Source: Candidatus Hadarchaeum yellowstonense
Lineage (GTDB): Archaea > Hadarchaeota > Hadarchaeia > Hadarchaeales > Hadarchaeaceae
Direction of reading: 5' to 3'
Length of the DNA stretch: 33,771 nucleotides
Assembly: GCA_001515205.2 (NCBI GenBank)
Contig: LQMQ01000065.1
Coordinates: 1 to 33,771 of the forward strand
Shown here: one piece after another, positions 22,421 to 29,821 of the stretch
How the letters are laid out: every line of letters starts with the position of its first letter
Numbering within the stretch: the stretch's first letter is position 1
Translations under genes and position numbers: made by a program
Notes under the pieces: model-generated
Seen by the model: the letters and a program-made list of their open reading frames with translations, nothing else
What the model was told of the DNA's origin: nothing
Database searches by the model: none

Positions 22421-23827
22421 CTAAATCTCCGCGAGCCATTTCATCTCGGTCCGATCGGCTCCCAGCGCTAGCAGCTGGGCCCGCGACTTGTAGAATGTCT
22501 CCGAGTACTCTGCTTCCGGGAGAGACTGAGAAACAATCCCCGCCCCCACGGGCACGAAGGCCCTGCCTCCGTTGATTAAAATCGACCTGACGATGATCCC
22601 CATATCTAAGTTGCCCGAATTGTCCACAAAACCGAAAGAACCAGCGTAGACCCCTCTGGCGTCGGGTTCAATCTCATCTATCACCTCCATCGCCTTTCGC
22701 TTTGGCGCCCCGGCTATCGTCGCCGAGGGGAAGGAGACCTTCAATAAACTAAACTTATCCGTCGTCCTGCCACTTATCCTCGATACCAGGTGCTGGAAAA
22801 ATGGAAATTTCTTAACCTTAAGTTTCTCCTCAACCCTTACCTCACGGCACACGGATTTGAACTCGGCAAGACACTCATCTAAAAGCATGGCATGTTCAGC
22901 TCTTTCCTTTCGGCTGCTCCTCAGCTCTTGTTCCAGCCGTTTATCCTCGGCGGGGCTGGTGCCTCTCCTTCTCGTCGCAGCCACCGGCCGGCTCTCCGCA
23001 AAGCTGCCGCGCAGGGTCAGGAAGTTCTCCGGCGAAGATCCTAAAACGGCACGATCGCCGGCGCGGAGAAAGAAAAGATAGGGACAGGGGTTTATTTTTC
23101 TGAGTCTAAGATAGACAGCGAGAGGATCATCTGCTTTAACGGAAATTCTACGGGAAATTATCGCCTGCTTGATCTCACCCTTCGAGATGCGTGACTTTGC
23201 CTCGTTGACCATCTTCAAGTACTCTGCTTTCTCGACGTTCACGGAAACATCAGAAAAGCGGGGCTCCTTCAGCCTCCTCGGCTTGGGAAGCGTCAACATG
23301 GCCTCAACCTCCTCAGTTGCCCGGCGGTAGACCCTAATTGGCTCGTCATCAACTGGTGTACAATAAACTGCCCTCAGCGTCCCACTTCTAGCCTGGTAGA
23401 ACCGATTCACCGAAAGGAAGAGGGCATGCGGAAGCGAGACGGGGTCTGGTTCCTTCCATTCCATGCCAAGCATCGGCCTCGCCGCGTCATAGCCCAGATA
23501 TCCGACAACACCGCCGCTGAAAGGCATCGATGCCGGCGGGGCAATTCCACCGCTCAGTAGCGTTGAGAGGAAATCAAAGGGGCTTTCCTCCTGACCCCTT
23601 TCAAAGGCCATTACTCCACCCGCCTGGCCGAAGATTGAGGTTCCGTCCCTTTCAAAGGCGAAGATCGGGTCATCCATCGAAGAAAGGGCAAAAATTGGAT
23701 CTTCTTCAACATCGATTTTTGCGCTGACCGGGATGATGGAGTGTTTCCTAGCTAGCCTGAGAAACTTCTGCAGATCTGGTAGGAAATCCTCAACCAAAGT
23801 CTCACCAATCAAGTTCCAAATGTCCAC
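22421..23827 (-). CDS. Divergent chorismate-binding enzyme (TrpE/PabB superfamily)
   Basis: A 468-residue protein with an N-terminal TrpE-like domain (GYLGYDAAR, 110-118) and a C-terminal chorismate-binding domain. Conserved catalytic residues are Gln221 (lysine in isochorismate synthases), Glu311 in RAEH, His346 in FQHLVS, the AGAPKRKAME loop (372-381) and Glu440. Position 284 is Ala, not the lysine of aminodeoxychorismate synthase. After Glu311 the usual DLGRNDLGRV block is replaced by DECLAEFKSV (317-326), and the tryptophan-sensing LLES motif is not seen. No glutamine amidotransferase partner is adjacent. The gene overlaps the SAH hydrolase gene; GTG 23827, TTG 23812 and TTG 23797 are all possible starts. 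The product is not assignable. Confidence 0.82.
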   Translation of the reverse strand: MDIWNLIGETLVEDFLPDLQKFLRLARKHSIIPVSAKIDVEEDPIFALSSMDDPIFAFERDGTSIFGQAGGVMAFERGQEESPFDFLSTLLSGGIAPPASMPFSGGVVGYLGYDAARPMLGMEWKEPDPVSLPHALFLSVNRFYQARSGTLRAVYCTPVDDEPIRVYRRATEEVEAMLTLPKPRRLKEPRFSDVSVNVEKAEYLKMVNEAKSRISKGEIKQAIISRRISVKADDPLAVYLRLRKINPCPYLFFLRAGDRAVLGSSPENFLTLRGSFAESRPVAATRRRGTSPAEDKRLEQELRSSRKERAEHAMLLDECLAEFKSVCREVRVEEKLKVKKFPFFQHLVSRISGRTTDKFSLLKVSFPSATIAGAPKRKAMEVIDEIEPDARGVYAGSFGFVDNSGNLDMGIIVRSILINGGRAFVPVGAGIVSQSLPEAEYSETFYKSRAQLLALGADRTEMKWLAEI

Positions 23828-25068
23828 GAAGCCGAGTACTCGATCTGCTCCTTGGTCGGCCTCTCAATTTTGATTCCCATGGAGCGCAACTTCAGCTCGG
23901 CAACCATTCGATCAATCTCCGGCGGCACCTCGTAGACCCCCGGCGCCAGGTTCCTGCCCACCCGAACCAGGTGAACCACGCTCAGCGCCTGAAGGGCAAA
24001 GCTCATGTCCATGATCTCCATCGGGTGCCCGAGCGAGCGCTTCCCCGCCAGGTTAACCAGCCTTCCCTCCGCCAGAAGGTAAACCCTGCGCCCGTTCTTC
24101 AGCCGGAACTCCTGAACATCGTCCACGATCTCTCTCCTGCTCACGGCCAAGCGGTTGAGCCCCTCGAGATCAATTTCAACGTTAAAGTGCCCCGAGTTGC
24201 ACAAAATCGCGCCGTCTTTCATCAGGCGAATGTGCTCCGCCCGGATGACCTTGAAGCTACCCGTGGTGGTGATGAAAAGCTCGCCCCACCTCGCCGCCTC
24301 GCTCATCGAGGCCACCATGAACCCATCCATCGCTGCCTCCAGCGCCTTTATCGGGTCGGTTTCGACAACCGTGACCACCGCCCCCAAGCCCTTGGCCCGG
24401 GAGGCGATCCCCCTGCCGACGAAGCCGTAGCCCACCACGACCAGCCTCTTTCCCGCGATGAGGGTGTTTGTCATCCCGGTGATGGCCTGGAAGGTAGACT
24501 CCGCGGTGCCAAACCTGTTATCGAAAAATCTCTTGGAGGGACTATCGTTGACCGCAATTACCGGAAAACTCAGGGCCCCCTCTTTCTCCATGGCCCGCAG
24601 GCGATTGACTCCGGTCGTCGTCTCCTCAGAAGCGCCGATTATTGTGCTCAGCAGCTCCCGGCGCTGGGTGTGCACGGCCGTGATCAGGTCGGCCCCATCA
24701 TCGATCAGGATCTGGGGCTTGGTCTCCAGCACCGCGTTCAGGTTGGAGTAATAATCCTTGGTGCTCTCACCGCGCCAGGCGTAGACGTGAACGCCTTCCT
24801 TGGCCAAGGCCGCCGCCACCTCATCGCGGGTGGAAAGGGGGTTGCAGCTGGTTATCGCCACCCTGGCTCCTCCGGCCACCAGAGTCCTCACCAGCACTCC
24901 GGTCTTGGCCTCGGTGTGCAGGGCGGCCCCAACGGTGACCCCCCGGAGTGGTTTTGTTTCCGCCAGCTCGCGGCGAATCTCGGCCAGGACGGGCATATGC
25001 CGCTCCGCCCATTCCATCATCCGCTTGCCCTGAGCTGCAAGCCTGATGTCCTTCACCTTATAATTCAC
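23809..25068 (-). CDS. ahcY: Adenosylhomocysteinase / probable S-inosylhomocysteine hydrolase
   Basis: A 419-residue NAD-dependent hydrolase of the SAHH family. The NAD loop GYGFVGRG (213-220), catalytic Lys179 and Asp183 in NDSPSKRFFDN, Asp124 and Glu149 are intact. The base-recognition segment reads HTEAKTGVL, so Lys55 stands where human SAHH has Glu59, which contacts the adenine amino group. The C-terminal Lys/Tyr tail of human-type enzymes is absent. Both features fit the archaeal/thermophile branch, of which the Methanocaldococcus member uses S-inosylhomocysteine. The GTG start lies in a GTGA overlap with the upstream deaminase gene and follows GGTGAGG, so the two are co-translated. Confidence 0.93.
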   Translation of the reverse strand: MNYKVKDIRLAAQGKRMMEWAERHMPVLAEIRRELAETKPLRGVTVGAALHTEAKTGVLVRTLVAGGARVAITSCNPLSTRDEVAAALAKEGVHVYAWRGESTKDYYSNLNAVLETKPQILIDDGADLITAVHTQRRELLSTIIGASEETTTGVNRLRAMEKEGALSFPVIAVNDSPSKRFFDNRFGTAESTFQAITGMTNTLIAGKRLVVVGYGFVGRGIASRAKGLGAVVTVVETDPIKALEAAMDGFMVASMSEAARWGELFITTTGSFKVIRAEHIRLMKDGAILCNSGHFNVEIDLEGLNRLAVSRREIVDDVQEFRLKNGRRVYLLAEGRLVNLAGKRSLGHPMEIMDMSFALQALSVVHLVRVGRNLAPGVYEVPPEIDRMVAELKLRSMGIKIERPTKEQIEYSASWTFGT

Positions 25069-26372
25069 TTTTCCTCACCCAGTCGAGAGACCAGATCATC
25101 AGAAGTTCTTTGCGCCAGCTCTAAAACCTTCTCTTCGTCGAGAGTGAGCACCTCGCCGCCTTCCAGCAATATCTTCCCATCAACGATGACCGTGTCAACG
25201 TCACTGCCGGTGGCGCTGTAGATGAGGTGGGAGACCACGTCGTGCAGAGGGGAAAGGTGCGGCTTTTTCAGGTCCACCAGGATCAGGTCAGCCTTCTTCC
25301 CCACCTCGATCGACCCCAGCTCATCTTCCAGGCCCAGGGCCGCGGCGCCGTTCCTCGTTGCCATCTCCAGGGCCTTCATCGCCGGAAGGGCCGTGGGATC
25401 ACGATTGCGGAGCTTGGCCAGAAGCGACGCCAGCTTCATCTCCTTGAACAGGTCGAGGGAGTTGTTGGAAGCGGCCCCATCCGTCCCCAGGGCGACCGGA
25501 ACACCTGCCTGGAGCATCTCGACCACCGGGGCGATGCCGGACCCCATCTTCAGATTGCTCGTGGGATTGTGAACCGGCTTGACTCCCCTTCTCTGAATGA
25601 TCCCGACCTCCCTCTTCGTGACCCAGACACAGTGGGCGGCTAAGACCTCCGGCCCCAAAAACCCTATTGAATCCAGATATTCCACGGGTCGCTTACCATA
25701 TCTTCTGATTGTCTGCTTCACCTCAGCGCTGCTCTCGGAAACGTGAATGTGAATGCCCACCCCGAACTTAGCCGCCAGCTCCTTCACCTTCAACAAACAC
25801 TCCGTGGAACAGGTGTAAGGCGCGTGCGGGCCGAACATGGTCAAGATCCTGCCCCCGGCTTTTCCGTGAAAGGACCTGACAAAGCTCTGGCCGATTCTTA
25901 TCTCCTCCCTCATCTTTTGCTCATCATCCCGATCTATCATTCCGTAAGAAAGAACACCCCTGAGGCCGGCCTTCGCCACGGCCCGGGCAACCTGATCCAT
26001 GTGGAAATAATTATCAGCAAAGCAGGTGGTGCCTGACTTTATCAGCTCCAGCGCTCCCAGCAGCGCCCCGGCATAACAGTCGCGCGGGCCCATTTTCTTT
26101 TCCATCGGCCAGATCCTGTCCGAGAGCCATTTATCCAGCGGCATGTCGTCGGCGAAGCCGCGGAGCAGAACCATAGGGAGATGGGTGTGGCAGTTGATCA
26201 GGCCGGGCAGGACGGCCTTCCCGCGGGCATCGATCACCCTCTCTGCCCTCTCCCTGACCTCACCGACCGCCACAATCCTGTTGCCCTCTATCGCCACCGA
26301 GCCCTTCTCGATCACCTGGCGGCCGGGATTCATCGTGACCAGGAGGCCGCCCCTGACCAAGAGATCAGCCAA
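25065..26372 (-). CDS. dadD: SAH/MTA/5'-deoxyadenosine deaminase (amidohydrolase, DadD-like)
   Basis: A 435-residue TIM-barrel amidohydrolase that deaminates adenosine-containing nucleosides at C6. Metal and catalytic motifs are NCHTHL (His62, His64), GPHAPYTCS (His183), HIHVSES (His210, Glu213), AHCVW (His247) and LGTDGAASNNSLD (Asp298). These are characteristic of the MTA/SAH deaminase group. Upstream and downstream it is coupled to a DJ-1 gene (8-base gap) and to the SAH hydrolase (4-base overlap). Together with the Lys55 variant hydrolase this suggests SAH to S-inosylhomocysteine to homocysteine plus inosine. The start is TTG, with GGTGA 4 bases upstream. Guanine or aminodeoxyfutalosine deaminase is a less likely reading. 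Confidence 0.92.
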   Translation of the reverse strand: MADLLVRGGLLVTMNPGRQVIEKGSVAIEGNRIVAVGEVRERAERVIDARGKAVLPGLINCHTHLPMVLLRGFADDMPLDKWLSDRIWPMEKKMGPRDCYAGALLGALELIKSGTTCFADNYFHMDQVARAVAKAGLRGVLSYGMIDRDDEQKMREEIRIGQSFVRSFHGKAGGRILTMFGPHAPYTCSTECLLKVKELAAKFGVGIHIHVSESSAEVKQTIRRYGKRPVEYLDSIGFLGPEVLAAHCVWVTKREVGIIQRRGVKPVHNPTSNLKMGSGIAPVVEMLQAGVPVALGTDGAASNNSLDLFKEMKLASLLAKLRNRDPTALPAMKALEMATRNGAAALGLEDELGSIEVGKKADLILVDLKKPHLSPLHDVVSHLIYSATGSDVDTVIVDGKILLEGGEVLTLDEEKVLELAQRTSDDLVSRLGEEK

Positions 26373-26380
26373 TATTTCAC

Positions 26381-26908
26381 CTAGCCCCTGAGCGCCTTCG
26401 CGATGGCGCGCCCGAACTCGCGGGCCGCGGTTGGTCCATTCGCGGTGATCACGTTGCCGTCGACCACCACCGGCTTATCCTGGTAGATGGCTCCTCCGCT
26501 CTCAATCATCTCCACGTAATCTCCGGGGAACACTGTTGCACGCTTGCCCTTGAGCACACCCGCGTTGGCCAGGATCACCGGCGCGATGCAGATGGCGCCG
26601 ACCTTTTTGCCCTTCTTGAAGGCCTCGCTGGCGATGGCGAGAGCCCGCCTGTCCTTAAAGTAAACTGCCGCGCCCGATCCGCCGACAAAGACAACACCGT
26701 CGTAATCGTCAACCCTGACCTGATCGAGTGTTATCTCCGGGCTCACCCTAGCACCGAGCATTCCCCGCGCCTCGGCCTTCTTGGCGCTAGCCACCGTGGT
26801 CGTCACCCCGGCGCGCTCCAGCTCCTCCTTGGTGTGGAAAAGCTCCTCGTCCCTGAAGTTCTCAGGAGCTATGATCAACAGCACCTTTCCCGCCAGAGAG
26901 ATCACCAA
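26381..26908 (-). CDS. DJ-1/PfpI-family protein
   Basis: A 175-residue DJ-1/PfpI fold protein. The nucleophile Cys107 lies in the elbow AICIAP, and the supporting Glu16 lies in APENFRDEE. PfpI-type proteases have a His directly after the cysteine; here it is Ile, so a peptidase triad of that kind is not formed. Reported activities in the family include chaperone, glyoxalase and contested deglycase roles; I cannot choose among them. It heads the operon with dadD, ahcY and the chorismate enzyme. A TATA-like element at 26928-26936 places transcription start at about 26906, so translation from TTG 26908 or GTG 26905 would be essentially leaderless. Confidence 0.9.
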   Translation of the reverse strand: MVISLAGKVLLIIAPENFRDEELFHTKEELERAGVTTTVASAKKAEARGMLGARVSPEITLDQVRVDDYDGVVFVGGSGAAVYFKDRRALAIASEAFKKGKKVGAICIAPVILANAGVLKGKRATVFPGDYVEMIESGGAIYQDKPVVVDGNVITANGPTAAREFGRAIAKALRG

Positions 26909-27101: not shown

Positions 27102-28910
27102 ATGGGCAAATTTTACATCACCACGCCGATCTACTACATCAACTCGGTGCCGCACATCGGTCACGCTTACACCACCGTGATAGCCGACGCCCTCGCCCGC
27201 TGGCACCGGCTACGCGGTGATGACGTCTTCTTCCTCACCGGCCTGGATGAGAATTCGGCGAAAACTCTGGAGGCCGCGAAGGAAAGGGGCTTCAAGGACA
27301 TCCAGGCCTACGCCGACTCCATGGCAAACCTGTGGCTGAGCACCTGGAGGTTGCTGGAGATCAGCAACGATGATTTCATCCGGACCACCCAAGAGAGACA
27401 CCGAAAAAATGTGATCGAGCTTTTCGAGCGCATCAGGTCAAAGGGGGACATCTATAAGGGAACTTATGAGGGGCTATACTGCGAGGGCTGCGAGGCCTAC
27501 TACACTGAGGCCGACCTCATCGACGGAAAGTGCCCCCTGCACCTGACCAGGCCGAAATGGCTCAAGGAGGAAAATTACTTCTTCAGGCTGTCAAAGTATG
27601 CCGACGCCCTGCTGAAGCACATCGAGGAGAACCCCGACTTCATCCAGCCAGAGGCCCGAAGGAATGAGGTCGTCAACTTCATCAAACAGGGGCTGAAGGA
27701 CATCAGCGTCACCCGGCAGAACCAGCAGTGGGGGATCGACGTCCCGGGAGAGCCGGGGCAGAAGATCTGGGTGTGGTTCGATGCCCTGATCAATTACCTG
27801 CTGCCGAAAAAATACTGGCCGGCTGATGTCCACATCATCGCGAAGGACATCATCAGGTTCCACTGCATCATCTGGCCCAGCATGCTCCTCTCCGCGGGAC
27901 TGGAGCTACCCAAGAGAATTTTCGCCCACGGCTTTCTCACCGTTGAAGGGCAGAAGATCAGCAAGTCGCTGGGCAACGTCATTGACCCGGCCTACCTGGT
28001 GGAGAAGTATTCAGCTGATGTCGTCAGATATTTTCTGATCCGCGAGGTTTCCTTTGGCCAGGATGGAAACTTTTCCGAGGCCAGCTTGGAGGCCAGGCTG
28101 AACGACGAACTGGCCGACATCCTCGGCAACTTCGTCCACCGCGTGCTCACCTTCATTCGCGACCGCTTCAACTCCAGAGTTCCCGAGGGAAAGGTTGACC
28201 GGAAGCTGGAGGAGGAGATCCTGCAGCGGGTGGAAAAAATAGAAAGGCTGCTGCTGGAGCTGAAGGTCTCCCAAGCTCTCGATGAAATCATGGCAATCGC
28301 CCGGCGGGGAAACGAGTACTTCCAGTCCTGTAAGCCCTGGGAGGCGATAAAGAAGGAAAAGGAAAAGGCCGCCGACTGTATTCTCTCCTGCGTCAATCTG
28401 GTGAAAATCCTGTGCGTGAGCCTCACCCCATTCATGCCCGAGGCCGCCGCCAAGCTGGCCAAGCAGCTCGCCATCGAGGTTAAGCACTGGAACCAGGCAA
28501 AAGCCTTCGACATCAGGCCAGGCCACGTTATTGGAGAGCCCGTGGCGCTGTTTGCCAAGCTGAAAAAAGCGGAGGGGCCAAAGGAGAAGCTGATCTCCAT
28601 TGAGGAGTTCGGAAAGCTCGACATCAGGATCGGCAGGGTGCTTGCGGCTGAGCGGGTGCCGAAGTCAAAAAAATTGCTCAAGCTGGAAGTGGACCTCGGC
28701 AGGGAGAAGAGGACGCTCGTAGCTGGAATAGCGGAAAAATATGCGCCTGAGGATCTGGTTGGAAAAAATATCGTCGTTTTGGCAAACCTTGAGCCCGCCA
28801 AGCTAATGGGGGTAACCTCTGAGGGAATGCTCTTGGCCGCCGAGGACGAGGCGGGAGTCTCAATTCTGGTGACCGATCGACCGGTCAAGCCGGGCTCAAA
28901 GGTGAGATAG
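27102..28910 (+). CDS. metG: Methionyl-tRNA synthetase, bacterial-type, with fused C-terminal tRNA-binding domain
   Basis: A 602-residue class Ia synthetase. The N-terminus reads TTPIYYINSVPHIGHAYTT, with HIGH at 18-21, then FFLTGLDENSAKT; KISKS is at 285-289. A single zinc knuckle, CxxC (127, 130) plus CxxH (144, 147), is inserted in the connective domain. These are traits of the Bacillus/Thermus-like bacterial MetRS group; typical archaeal MetRS begins with a TSALPYANG-type motif and has two knuckles. From about residue 498 an EMAP-II/Trbp111 OB-fold tRNA-binding domain is fused (EEFGKLDIRIGRVL). TGLDEN replaces the more common TGTDEH. The PHP gene follows with no gap. Confidence 0.95.
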   Translation: MGKFYITTPIYYINSVPHIGHAYTTVIADALARWHRLRGDDVFFLTGLDENSAKTLEAAKERGFKDIQAYADSMANLWLSTWRLLEISNDDFIRTTQERHRKNVIELFERIRSKGDIYKGTYEGLYCEGCEAYYTEADLIDGKCPLHLTRPKWLKEENYFFRLSKYADALLKHIEENPDFIQPEARRNEVVNFIKQGLKDISVTRQNQQWGIDVPGEPGQKIWVWFDALINYLLPKKYWPADVHIIAKDIIRFHCIIWPSMLLSAGLELPKRIFAHGFLTVEGQKISKSLGNVIDPAYLVEKYSADVVRYFLIREVSFGQDGNFSEASLEARLNDELADILGNFVHRVLTFIRDRFNSRVPEGKVDRKLEEEILQRVEKIERLLLELKVSQALDEIMAIARRGNEYFQSCKPWEAIKKEKEKAADCILSCVNLVKILCVSLTPFMPEAAAKLAKQLAIEVKHWNQAKAFDIRPGHVIGEPVALFAKLKKAEGPKEKLISIEEFGKLDIRIGRVLAAERVPKSKKLLKLEVDLGREKRTLVAGIAEKYAPEDLVGKNIVVLANLEPAKLMGVTSEGMLLAAEDEAGVSILVTDRPVKPGSKVR

Positions 28911-29546
28911 TTGCTGCGGCTTGACCTCCACGTGCACACCAATCACTCCTACGATTGCCGTTGTTCCGTCGAGAGAGCCGTCGAAGTCGCCAGAGCCAAG
29001 GGGTTGAACGGAATAGCGATAACCGACCATGACAGCATCTCCGGGCATCAGGACGCCAAAAAAATAAGAGACGATGAATTCATCATCATCCCCGGCGTGG
29101 AGATCTCCAGCGCTCACGGCCACATCCTCGGCCTCGGAATCAGCGAGCCGATCCCGAGGGCGCTGCCCGCAGCTGAGACAGTTGACCTGATCAGAAGCCA
29201 AGGCGGCATAGCCGTTGCCGCCCACCCCTTCGCGCCGGGAAGGCGGGTGGGGCTGGTCTATCAAGCGAGCTTCGATGCCATTGAGGGGCTGAACTCCAGG
29301 GCCATCCTTTTGAGCAATCCATTGGCGCAGAGATTTGCTAAAAAGAATGGCCTGCCCATGGTTGCCGGTTCCGATGCCCACCGGTGTGAGGACGTCGGCA
29401 TGGCTTACACCTTGCTGGACTGTGAGCCAAACCTTGACTCAGCGCTGAAAACAATAAAAAGGGGAGGGACATCGATCGCGGGTCGGACCCTCCCCCTCCT
29501 GAGCTTCCTGTGGAGGGTTCTCCAGAAGGCCCTCCACGGGAGATGA
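28911..29546 (+). CDS. PHP-domain metal-dependent phosphoesterase
   Basis: A 211-residue PHP-fold protein. Metal ligands are seen in order: DLHVHTNHSYD (His7, His9), ITDHDS (Asp39, His40), Glu64, His71, AAHPF (His105) and GSDAH (Asp155, His157). Stand-alone PHP proteins include histidinol phosphatases and oligonucleotide or cyclic phosphodiesterases; this one is too general to assign. The TTG start directly follows the metG stop, and GGTGAG in the end of metG serves as the ribosome site, so the two are co-transcribed. A strong stem-loop follows at 29552-29586. Confidence 0.9.
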   Translation: MLRLDLHVHTNHSYDCRCSVERAVEVARAKGLNGIAITDHDSISGHQDAKKIRDDEFIIIPGVEISSAHGHILGLGISEPIPRALPAAETVDLIRSQGGIAVAAHPFAPGRRVGLVYQASFDAIEGLNSRAILLSNPLAQRFAKKNGLPMVAGSDAHRCEDVGMAYTLLDCEPNLDSALKTIKRGGTSIAGRTLPLLSFLWRVLQKALHGR

Positions 29547-29635: not shown

Positions 29636-29821
29636 TCATTTCTCTTTAGCATACTCCATGAGACTCTTCGCCTTTTCGAGGTAGGTCATGGTCCAATCGT
29701 GGACCATCTTGCGGATTACCTCGCTGCGATTCGTCCCATATCCCGACTTTATCAAATCATCGATGATCTTGAGGTAGATGCCGTCGACGAAGACCCGAAC
29801 CTCTCCCTTCTTATCAACCAT
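29636..29821 (-). CDS. Small ribbon-helix-helix DNA-binding protein
   Basis: A 61-residue protein. A strand EVRVFVDGIYLKIIDDLIKSG followed by the turn GYGTNRSEVIRKMVHDW is the classic CopG/Arc ribbon-helix-helix, which binds DNA as a dimer. A short helical tail follows. No toxin gene is adjacent, so it is more likely a stand-alone regulator than an antitoxin; its target is unknown. The ATG follows GAGGGGG. The nearest good TATA element is about 175 bases upstream (29992-29999), implying a long leader unless another promoter is used. Confidence 0.85.
   Translation of the reverse strand: MVDKKGEVRVFVDGIYLKIIDDLIKSGYGTNRSEVIRKMVHDWTMTYLEKAKSLMEYAKEK

Follow-up and report, generated by a model that had tools for sequence, protein, structure and literature searches.

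The 33,771-nucleotide stretch of Candidatus Hadarchaeum yellowstonense DNA analysed here (contig LQMQ01000065.1 of assembly GCA_001515205.2; hereafter the window) encodes a methionyl-tRNA synthetase (MetRS) that, by its profile preferences and phylogeny, is a chimera: a bacterial-like catalytic domain, which we term type A, is joined to the native archaeal anticodon-binding domain of the lineage. On the same grounds, the bacterial-like part does not extend beyond the catalytic domain, which ends at about residue 335. The chimeric enzyme is presumably functional. The chimera, the conserved chromosomal slot in which the gene lies, the repeated changes of catalytic type in that slot and one recent swap, in the related genome G014, are all read from the sequences. 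We consider it likely that the 5' part of the gene, which encodes the catalytic domain, was replaced in place to give the chimera of the window, and that a free-standing LAGLIDADG homing endonuclease dedicated to MetRS drove the replacement.

The host of the window is an archaeon of the phylum Hadarchaeota: archaeal EF-2 and archaeal RpoB in its genome exceed their cut-offs, and an eRF1-domain gene is present within the window. The MetRS starts with TTPIYYINSVPHIGHAYTT and scores 723.1 bits against the bacterial-type model NF008900/PRK12267, above the cut-off of 598, and 484.9 bits against the archaeal/E. coli-type model NF001100/PRK00133, below the cut-off of 587. Its best solved matches are 2csx and 1a8h, which we take to be the MetRS of A. 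aeolicus and T. thermophilus, respectively, and the tRNA-binding domain of Pfam (PF01588) matches residues 508-600. A preliminary description of this DNA had assigned the gene to the bacterial MetRS group, citing a single zinc knuckle and a fused tRNA-binding domain. The bacterial type of the catalytic domain is confirmed by the domain scores given below and by the full-length score, and the sequence shows the single knuckle (C127/C130/C144/H147); a fused tRNA-binding domain does not mark the bacterial group, as 15 of 17 archaeal-type sequences carry it too. The suggested resemblance to bacteria of the candidate phyla radiation (CPR) is not borne out: TGLDENS (residues 46-52), within the segment said to recall them, is common to the window MetRS and the small-genome archaea G305, G431 and G464, and the CPR sequences used form, together with some archaeal sequences, a separate clade of the catalytic-domain tree (99/93).

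Domain profiles were derived from 17 sequences of archaeal type and 33 from non-CPR bacteria, with no Hadarchaeota sequence in either set; the bacterial set comprised 33 of the 35 non-CPR bacterial sequences, two from Gemmatimonadetes being left out. The catalytic domain of the window MetRS scores 498 bits against the bacterial profile versus 233 against the archaeal one, and 448 against a CPR profile, whereas its anticodon domain prefers the archaeal profile (149 bits versus 97). All 17 Hadarchaeota genes of type A or of a second bacterial-like type, B, behave in the same way, with a bacterial preference of 235-269 bits in the catalytic domain and an archaeal preference of 36-56 bits in the anticodon domain. 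Eleven of the 56 bacterial-type sequences from other archaea are made up similarly, their anticodon domain leaning to the archaeal side and their catalytic domain being bacterial- or CPR-like.

The trees of the two domains tell different histories. In the maximum-likelihood (ML) tree of the catalytic domain (86 sequences), type A, comprising the window and nine others, groups with the archaeon G305 (100/99), type B (seven sequences, 100/100) adjoins G133/G288 (99/91), and monophyly of A and B together is rejected by the approximately unbiased (AU) test (p-AU 1e-5). On this tree, the catalytic domain has its closest relatives beyond the phylum in other archaea with small genomes and not in CPR bacteria. 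The ML tree of the anticodon domain, built on 148 columns and weakly supported at many forks, unites all 17 A/B sequences of the order in one clade (100/100), nested in a 48-sequence clade of archaeal-type and chimeric archaeal sequences (100/100). Joining the type A sequences to G305 in this tree is rejected (p-AU 1e-7), as is joining the 17 sequences to ten DPANN-like bacterial-type sequences (p-AU 0.006), both tests having been run after the result of another, weighed below, was known. By profile and tree, the anticodon-binding domain is archaeal and common by descent within the order. Identities in segments of 20 residues locate the change: type A is 45-74% identical to the donor-like G305 and G431 through residue 340 and 12-41% thereafter, and type A compared with type B gives 21-64% through residue 300, 68-72% at 301-360 and 46-65% beyond. 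The window enzyme is therefore like PRK12267 in its catalytic domain, its single zinc knuckle and its score over the cut-off, but differs from it in an anticodon-binding domain that groups with archaeal MetRS; it is like PRK00133 in that second domain, but differs in its bacterial-like catalytic domain and its score under the cut-off. The earlier view, that an essential synthetase was likely replaced by transfer, is supported for the bacterial-like catalytic domain and not for the synthetase as a whole, its anticodon domain being archaeal by profile, tree and these two AU tests.

The check proposed at that stage, for a second, archaeal-type metG, turned up none in the 95%-complete genome, in which nothing exceeds the archaeal-type cut-off. 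Five other weak MetRS matches fall in three open reading frames (ORFs) of 903, 968 and 1100 amino acids, of which the first is ValRS and the other two were not taken as MetRS because they are too long. Among the 28 genomes of the phylum searched, the bacterial type exceeds its cut-off in 17 and the archaeal type is found in three (G003 and G007, of the window's family, and the outlying G027); none has both types, and the eight with neither are each less than 90% complete, one of them having a C-terminal fragment. Contamination is unlikely, as the same type occurs in 17 of the 28 genomes in a gene order common to them. The bacterial-type cut-off is exceeded in 57 of 394 archaeal genomes, 17 of these being Hadarchaeota, so that archaea with a MetRS of this type are no rarity.

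What is conserved is the chromosomal address of the gene. In the window's family, with few exceptions, the order is S-adenosylhomocysteine hydrolase, amidohydrolase, DJ-1, MetRS, PHP and a 61-amino-acid ORF; family f3 has only the downstream neighbours in common, and some contigs end before both flanks are covered. Type A and type B both occur in the slot, as does the archaeal (PRK00133) type in G003 and G007, with neighbours alike around all three. By these comparisons, the phylum has three deeply divergent kinds of catalytic domain (A, B and archaeal), and at least six type changes are counted among 20 typed genomes on a species tree made from EF-2, RpoB, ValRS and aRF1. The archaeal-type MetRS of G003 and G007 may be a mosaic too. 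The tRNA-binding domain of these two slot genes (L180 and L183) is on average 55% identical to that of other Hadarchaeota, and up to 68% to that of the window; against archaeal types the mean is only 46-48%.

A recent exchange is preserved in two sister species, G006 (type A) and G014 (type B), separated by marker-tree branches of 0.012 and 0.013. Their upstream DNA is 92-96% identical up to codon 34 of the A-type gene, where the gene breaks off in G014 and leaves a relic of its first 34 codons (E 1.6e-20 to a MetRS N-terminus profile). The relic is followed by a TATA-like box, recognised by eye, and by a 339-amino-acid LAGLIDADG ORF (LAGLIDADG_3, 23.6 bits; cut-off 22.5), the stop of which overlaps the start of a complete MetRS. 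In steps of 15 codons, the DNA of this MetRS over residues 1-330 is 82-100% identical to the type B gene of G011 and 31-71% to that of G006; from residue 346 it is 82-100% identical to G006 (at least 91% in all steps but one), and the G014 and G006 proteins are 90-97% identical beyond about residue 340. By this alignment, only the catalytic domain has been exchanged in G014 and the C-terminal part has been kept. It was because of the mosaic seen in this DNA comparison that the domains were analysed apart, and an interpretation drawn from the whole-gene tree alone, that two complete bacterial-type genes occupied the slot, was dropped.

The G014 endonuclease has relatives beside MetRS in many archaea. 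Three surveys, in which it and two relatives served as queries, covered overlapping sets of archaeal genomes: 19 of 394 genomes had a match at a threshold of 1e-3, 19 of 339 at 1e-5 and 15 of 311 at 1e-15. In 18 genomes from 13 archaeal families, MetRS is immediately preceded on its own strand by the endonuclease gene, and the two genes frequently touch or overlap; the endonuclease gene stands outside an intron or intein and beside its presumed target. All 18 MetRS-adjacent copies, together with that of G174, which lies at a contig end, form one clade of the endonuclease tree (100/100); the nine tree copies beside other genes (H+-pyrophosphatase, gatB, rtcB and radical-SAM genes among them) all fall outside it, and none of 500 label shufflings clustered as well. 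The weakest relatives were left out of the tree (for instance those of G046, G054, G105, G138, G151, G238, G263, G317, G322, G374, G401, G422, G435, G441, G152, G479 and G539, along with the second copies of G462 and G544), and G012 and G449 figured only in the first tree; the flanks fetched for the left-out relatives, as a rule about 1.5 kb per side, contain no MetRS gene. LAGLIDADG_3 matches all eight endonucleases scanned (E 0.01) with scores near the cut-off, the acidic residues of both motifs (GD and DAEG) are invariant in all eight aligned members, and helix-turn-helix units are present at the N terminus. The family profile matches solved homing endonucleases of the PDB (1dq3, I-OnuI and I-CreI variants; best E 1.5e-6), and the single G014 protein found no match there. 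The copies are patchy and several are broken, as expected of a cycle of gain, decay and loss. Searched against 50 named genomes (50 of the first 64 listed), the endonuclease alignment gave no match, a result that, with no positive control, shows little; phages likewise gave no match, and viral contigs gave two weak relatives, neither directly adjoining a MetRS gene, one of the two loci having a weak synthetase-like match (31 bits) almost 4 kb off. In one genome, G671 (L383:1480-4077), endonuclease and MetRS stand in one unbroken frame, which is either a fusion protein or a missing stop.

The partner MetRS are of several types. Those of G431, G464, G544 and G528 belong to the type A clade (100/100), so that the clade of the window's catalytic domain has four other members adjoining an endonuclease; other partners are B-like, of further bacterial-like types or, in G527 and G584, of archaeal type. 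The first seven linked genes had suggested that the endonuclease was confined to A and B lineages, an idea dropped when a later survey added archaeal-type and other MetRS. The small size of the partner genomes and the MetRS kinship of some to Nanoarchaeota and Woesearchaeota suggest that they are DPANN archaea. Types A and B most likely came from other small-genome archaea with bacterial-type MetRS, some of them beside an endonuclease.

We propose the following series of steps. The free-standing LAGLIDADG enzyme would cut the resident MetRS gene near the codons of the HIGH motif, a known motif of MetRS, and repair would copy in the endonuclease gene along with a divergent, presumably uncut catalytic domain. 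A second crossover would fall at the conserved junction before the anticodon domain, leaving the 3' part of the gene and its neighbours in place, and the endonuclease would be lost later. The native anticodon domain would maintain recognition of the host tRNA and the imported catalytic domain would carry out the chemistry. We put forward more tentatively, as a possibility somewhat short of probable, that the endonuclease is a natural cleave-and-rescue drive, which cuts MetRS near the HIGH codons, brings an uncuttable catalytic domain and jumps between archaeal lineages and MetRS types, and which would be a main reason for the mixture of MetRS types in archaea, the window chimera included.

Several observations weigh against the homing-driven replacement, and they bear on its alternatives. 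The window's genome has no endonuclease relative at E 1e-3, and the window has no leader motif of the hadarchaeal endonuclease within 6 edits, so the driver is one that we infer from relatives; moreover, a MetRS relic lies upstream of the endonuclease at only one of 17 scanned sites (the 18th, G363, begins at a contig end). The main rival holds that the catalytic domains were exchanged by ordinary homologous recombination via conserved sequence, the G014 endonuclease being an unrelated later insertion. Sixteen of the 17 Hadarchaeota A/B genomes have no endonuclease relative at the same threshold, the junctions lie within conserved sequence and the neighbours are common, all of which would suit recombination of this kind; we nevertheless regard it as unlikely, as the G014 endonuclease sits exactly between relic and new gene, with its stop across the MetRS start, and all 18 typed members of its clade, from 13 families, are 5' of MetRS. 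The count of type changes rests on a quick species tree without bootstrap. The endonuclease tree, in addition, conflicts with MetRS type, the sister endonucleases of G541 and G527 (100/100; branches 0.12 and 0.21) having MetRS partners of different type, bacterial in G541 and archaeal in G527; as the tree does not follow MetRS type, the endonuclease need not always carry a catalytic domain. The same conflict speaks against a second alternative, in which the gene, with its LAGLIDADG and helix-turn-helix parts, does not encode an active homing enzyme but has been domesticated to regulate metG. WhiA is a transcription factor of LAGLIDADG and helix-turn-helix make-up, and the N-terminal helix-turn-helix units and the tight, often touching or overlapping arrangement with MetRS would fit a regulator, but invariant acidic residues and patchy, broken copies would not, and we find such a role improbable.

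The remaining points against our proposal concern the anticodon domain and the G014 assembly. An AU test that placed the 17 anticodon domains with 38 bacterial-type sequences, against 31 archaeal-type or chimeric ones, gave p 0.42, although all it asks is if a position of the 17 in between these sides is allowed, which would hold equally if they were first-branching archaeal sequences; the tree of the tRNA-binding domain gave no resolved grouping. Gain of a complete bacterial MetRS by the archaeon would fit the outcome of that AU test, the whole-protein score of 723 bits against the bacterial-type model and the lack of an archaeal copy, and has a parallel in six named sequences from Nanoarchaeota, Woesearchaeota, Parvarchaeota and Micrarchaeota, in which both domains are nearer the bacterial side (in Woesearchaeota by only 6 bits). 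We hold whole-gene replacement to be highly improbable, given that the relatives of the anticodon and catalytic domains differ, that type A with G305 is rejected in the anticodon domain and that the swap between G014 and G006 is limited to the catalytic part. Least probable is an assembly or binning artefact in G014: misassembly is possible in these multi-contig assemblies, the crossover lies in a conserved stretch and a G011-like strain could co-occur, but two separate joins would be needed, the G014 endonuclease is absent from G011, and chimeric genes occur in six other type B genomes (G005, G011 and G023-G026) and in ten of type A.

Partial replacement of a gene by foreign sequence has reportedly been described for a fungal atp6 by Paquin and others (1994). 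The G014 swap and the dedicated endonuclease clade fit intronless homing as in T-even phages, in which, according to the excerpted text of the source, a free-standing endonuclease cuts a relative without it and the flanks are co-converted (PMC2988022). The likeness lies in a gene outside an intron or intein, beside its presumed target, and in co-conversion of flanks; the T4 enzymes of that excerpt are GIY-YIG or HNH, whereas here LAGLIDADG and helix-turn-helix units are found, on archaeal chromosomes and beside an essential synthetase. The LAGLIDADG genes of Haloferax glycosylation islands are likewise archaeal and free-standing and are proposed to move neighbours by conversion, but they belong to pfam03161, and the source excerpt describes neither a place beside MetRS nor a swap scar (PMC5867893). 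Genes of Tremella mitochondria, as far as the extract of the source goes, have been replaced in part by foreign sequence through introns with N-terminal duplications, in that the mobile element supplies a foreign N-terminal stretch and the displaced part of the resident gene persists as a duplicate; that case involves an intron in organelle genes, whereas the archaeal chromosome exchanges a whole catalytic domain and has no intron there (PMC7315562). Among the matches listed in a search of the open-licence literature, no title or opening of an abstract linked MetRS to a homing endonuclease.

Essential synthetases serve as markers of deep descent, and their replacement, where it occurs, is usually taken to involve the whole gene. 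In the Hadarchaeota, it is the catalytic half alone that has changed again and again in a single chromosomal slot, with types as far apart as bacterial and archaeal enzymes. A selfish endonuclease as the likely agent would account for the patchy history of archaeal MetRS by a mechanism that can be tested. Engineered cleave-and-rescue gene drives exist, and, if cutting and rescue prove true, the endonuclease would be their natural counterpart.

Table 1. Features of the window around the MetRS gene (ML, maximum likelihood; HMM, hidden Markov model; aa, amino acids).
Feature	Position	Strand	Basis
S-adenosylhomocysteine hydrolase gene, conserved slot neighbour	23809..25068	-	Pfam, gene order
Amidohydrolase gene, conserved slot neighbour	25065..26372	-	Pfam, gene order
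DJ-1/PfpI gene, upstream slot border in most genomes of the family	26381..26908	-	Pfam, gene order
MetRS gene, 602 aa, ATG start	27102..28910	+	ORF; curated models; sole MetRS found in genome
Catalytic domain, type A, bacterial-like, residues 1-335	27102..28106	+	HMM preference; ML trees
HIGH motif codons, residues 18-21	27153..27164	+	sequence
Codon 34 (Trp); homologous point in G014 is resident gene end and cassette start	27201..27203	+	G014/G006 DNA alignment; relic peptide
Single zinc knuckle, C127-x2-C130...C144-x2-H147	27480..27542	+	sequence; alignment with solved MetRS chains
KMSKS-type motif KISKS, residues 285-289	27954..27968	+	sequence
Junction zone, residues ~300-345, where catalytic and C-terminal histories change	27999..28136	+	sliding identities
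Anticodon-binding domain, residues 342-488, archaeal, lineage-native	28125..28565	+	HMM, ML tree, two of three AU tests
tRNA-binding domain, residues 500-602	28599..28907	+	Pfam, profiles, tree
PHP-domain gene, downstream slot border	28911..29546	+	Pfam, gene order
Conserved 61-aa ORF, ribbon-helix-helix-like by eye, without Pfam match, slot neighbour	29636..29821	-	gene order

Endonuclease-like ORFs, each with the same leader motif, were also seen before two other hadarchaeal genes for essential translation functions, valS (ValRS) of G016 and gatB of G004. The one in G016 (L199:523-1590) encodes 356 amino acids with two LAGLIDADG-like motifs by eye and no Pfam match, and bears the leader motif of the hadarchaeal endonuclease with 4 edits. 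Downstream of these ORFs, valS and gatB each carry an insert near the 5' end, of 19 nucleotides (L199:1839-1857) and 29 nucleotides (L333:4559-4587), respectively. The inserts resemble archaeal bulge-helix-bulge introns, with 3-nucleotide bulges and a 4-bp core, and may also be sequencing errors; the outer helix is imperfect in the valS insert (two of four pairs). Bulge-helix-bulge introns are cut after the second bulge base, and removal of either insert by this rule restores an open frame. A stricter geometry is satisfied by 3 and 31 of 231,920 position-length combinations in the two loci, and the valS insert fails it at the outer helix. If each free-standing endonuclease is indeed paired with a mini-intron in the gene that it presumably targets, the arrangement would, to our knowledge, be new.

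In three further archaeal genomes (L331:15601-16890, L335:3898-4977 and L379:3198-4409), related endonucleases are convergent with a long gene and overlap its 3' end slightly; at L331 and L335 this gene encodes an H+-pyrophosphatase by Pfam. Two named metagenome-assembled genomes of Bacteroidota and Ignavibacteriae (L086 and L101) carry an archaeal/E. coli-type MetRS and fall among archaeal sequences in a quick whole-gene tree. Stand-alone ORFs for a tRNA-binding domain, apart from the MetRS frame, occur at L346:5936-6229 in G341, just downstream, and at about 5956-6285 of L215 in G005.

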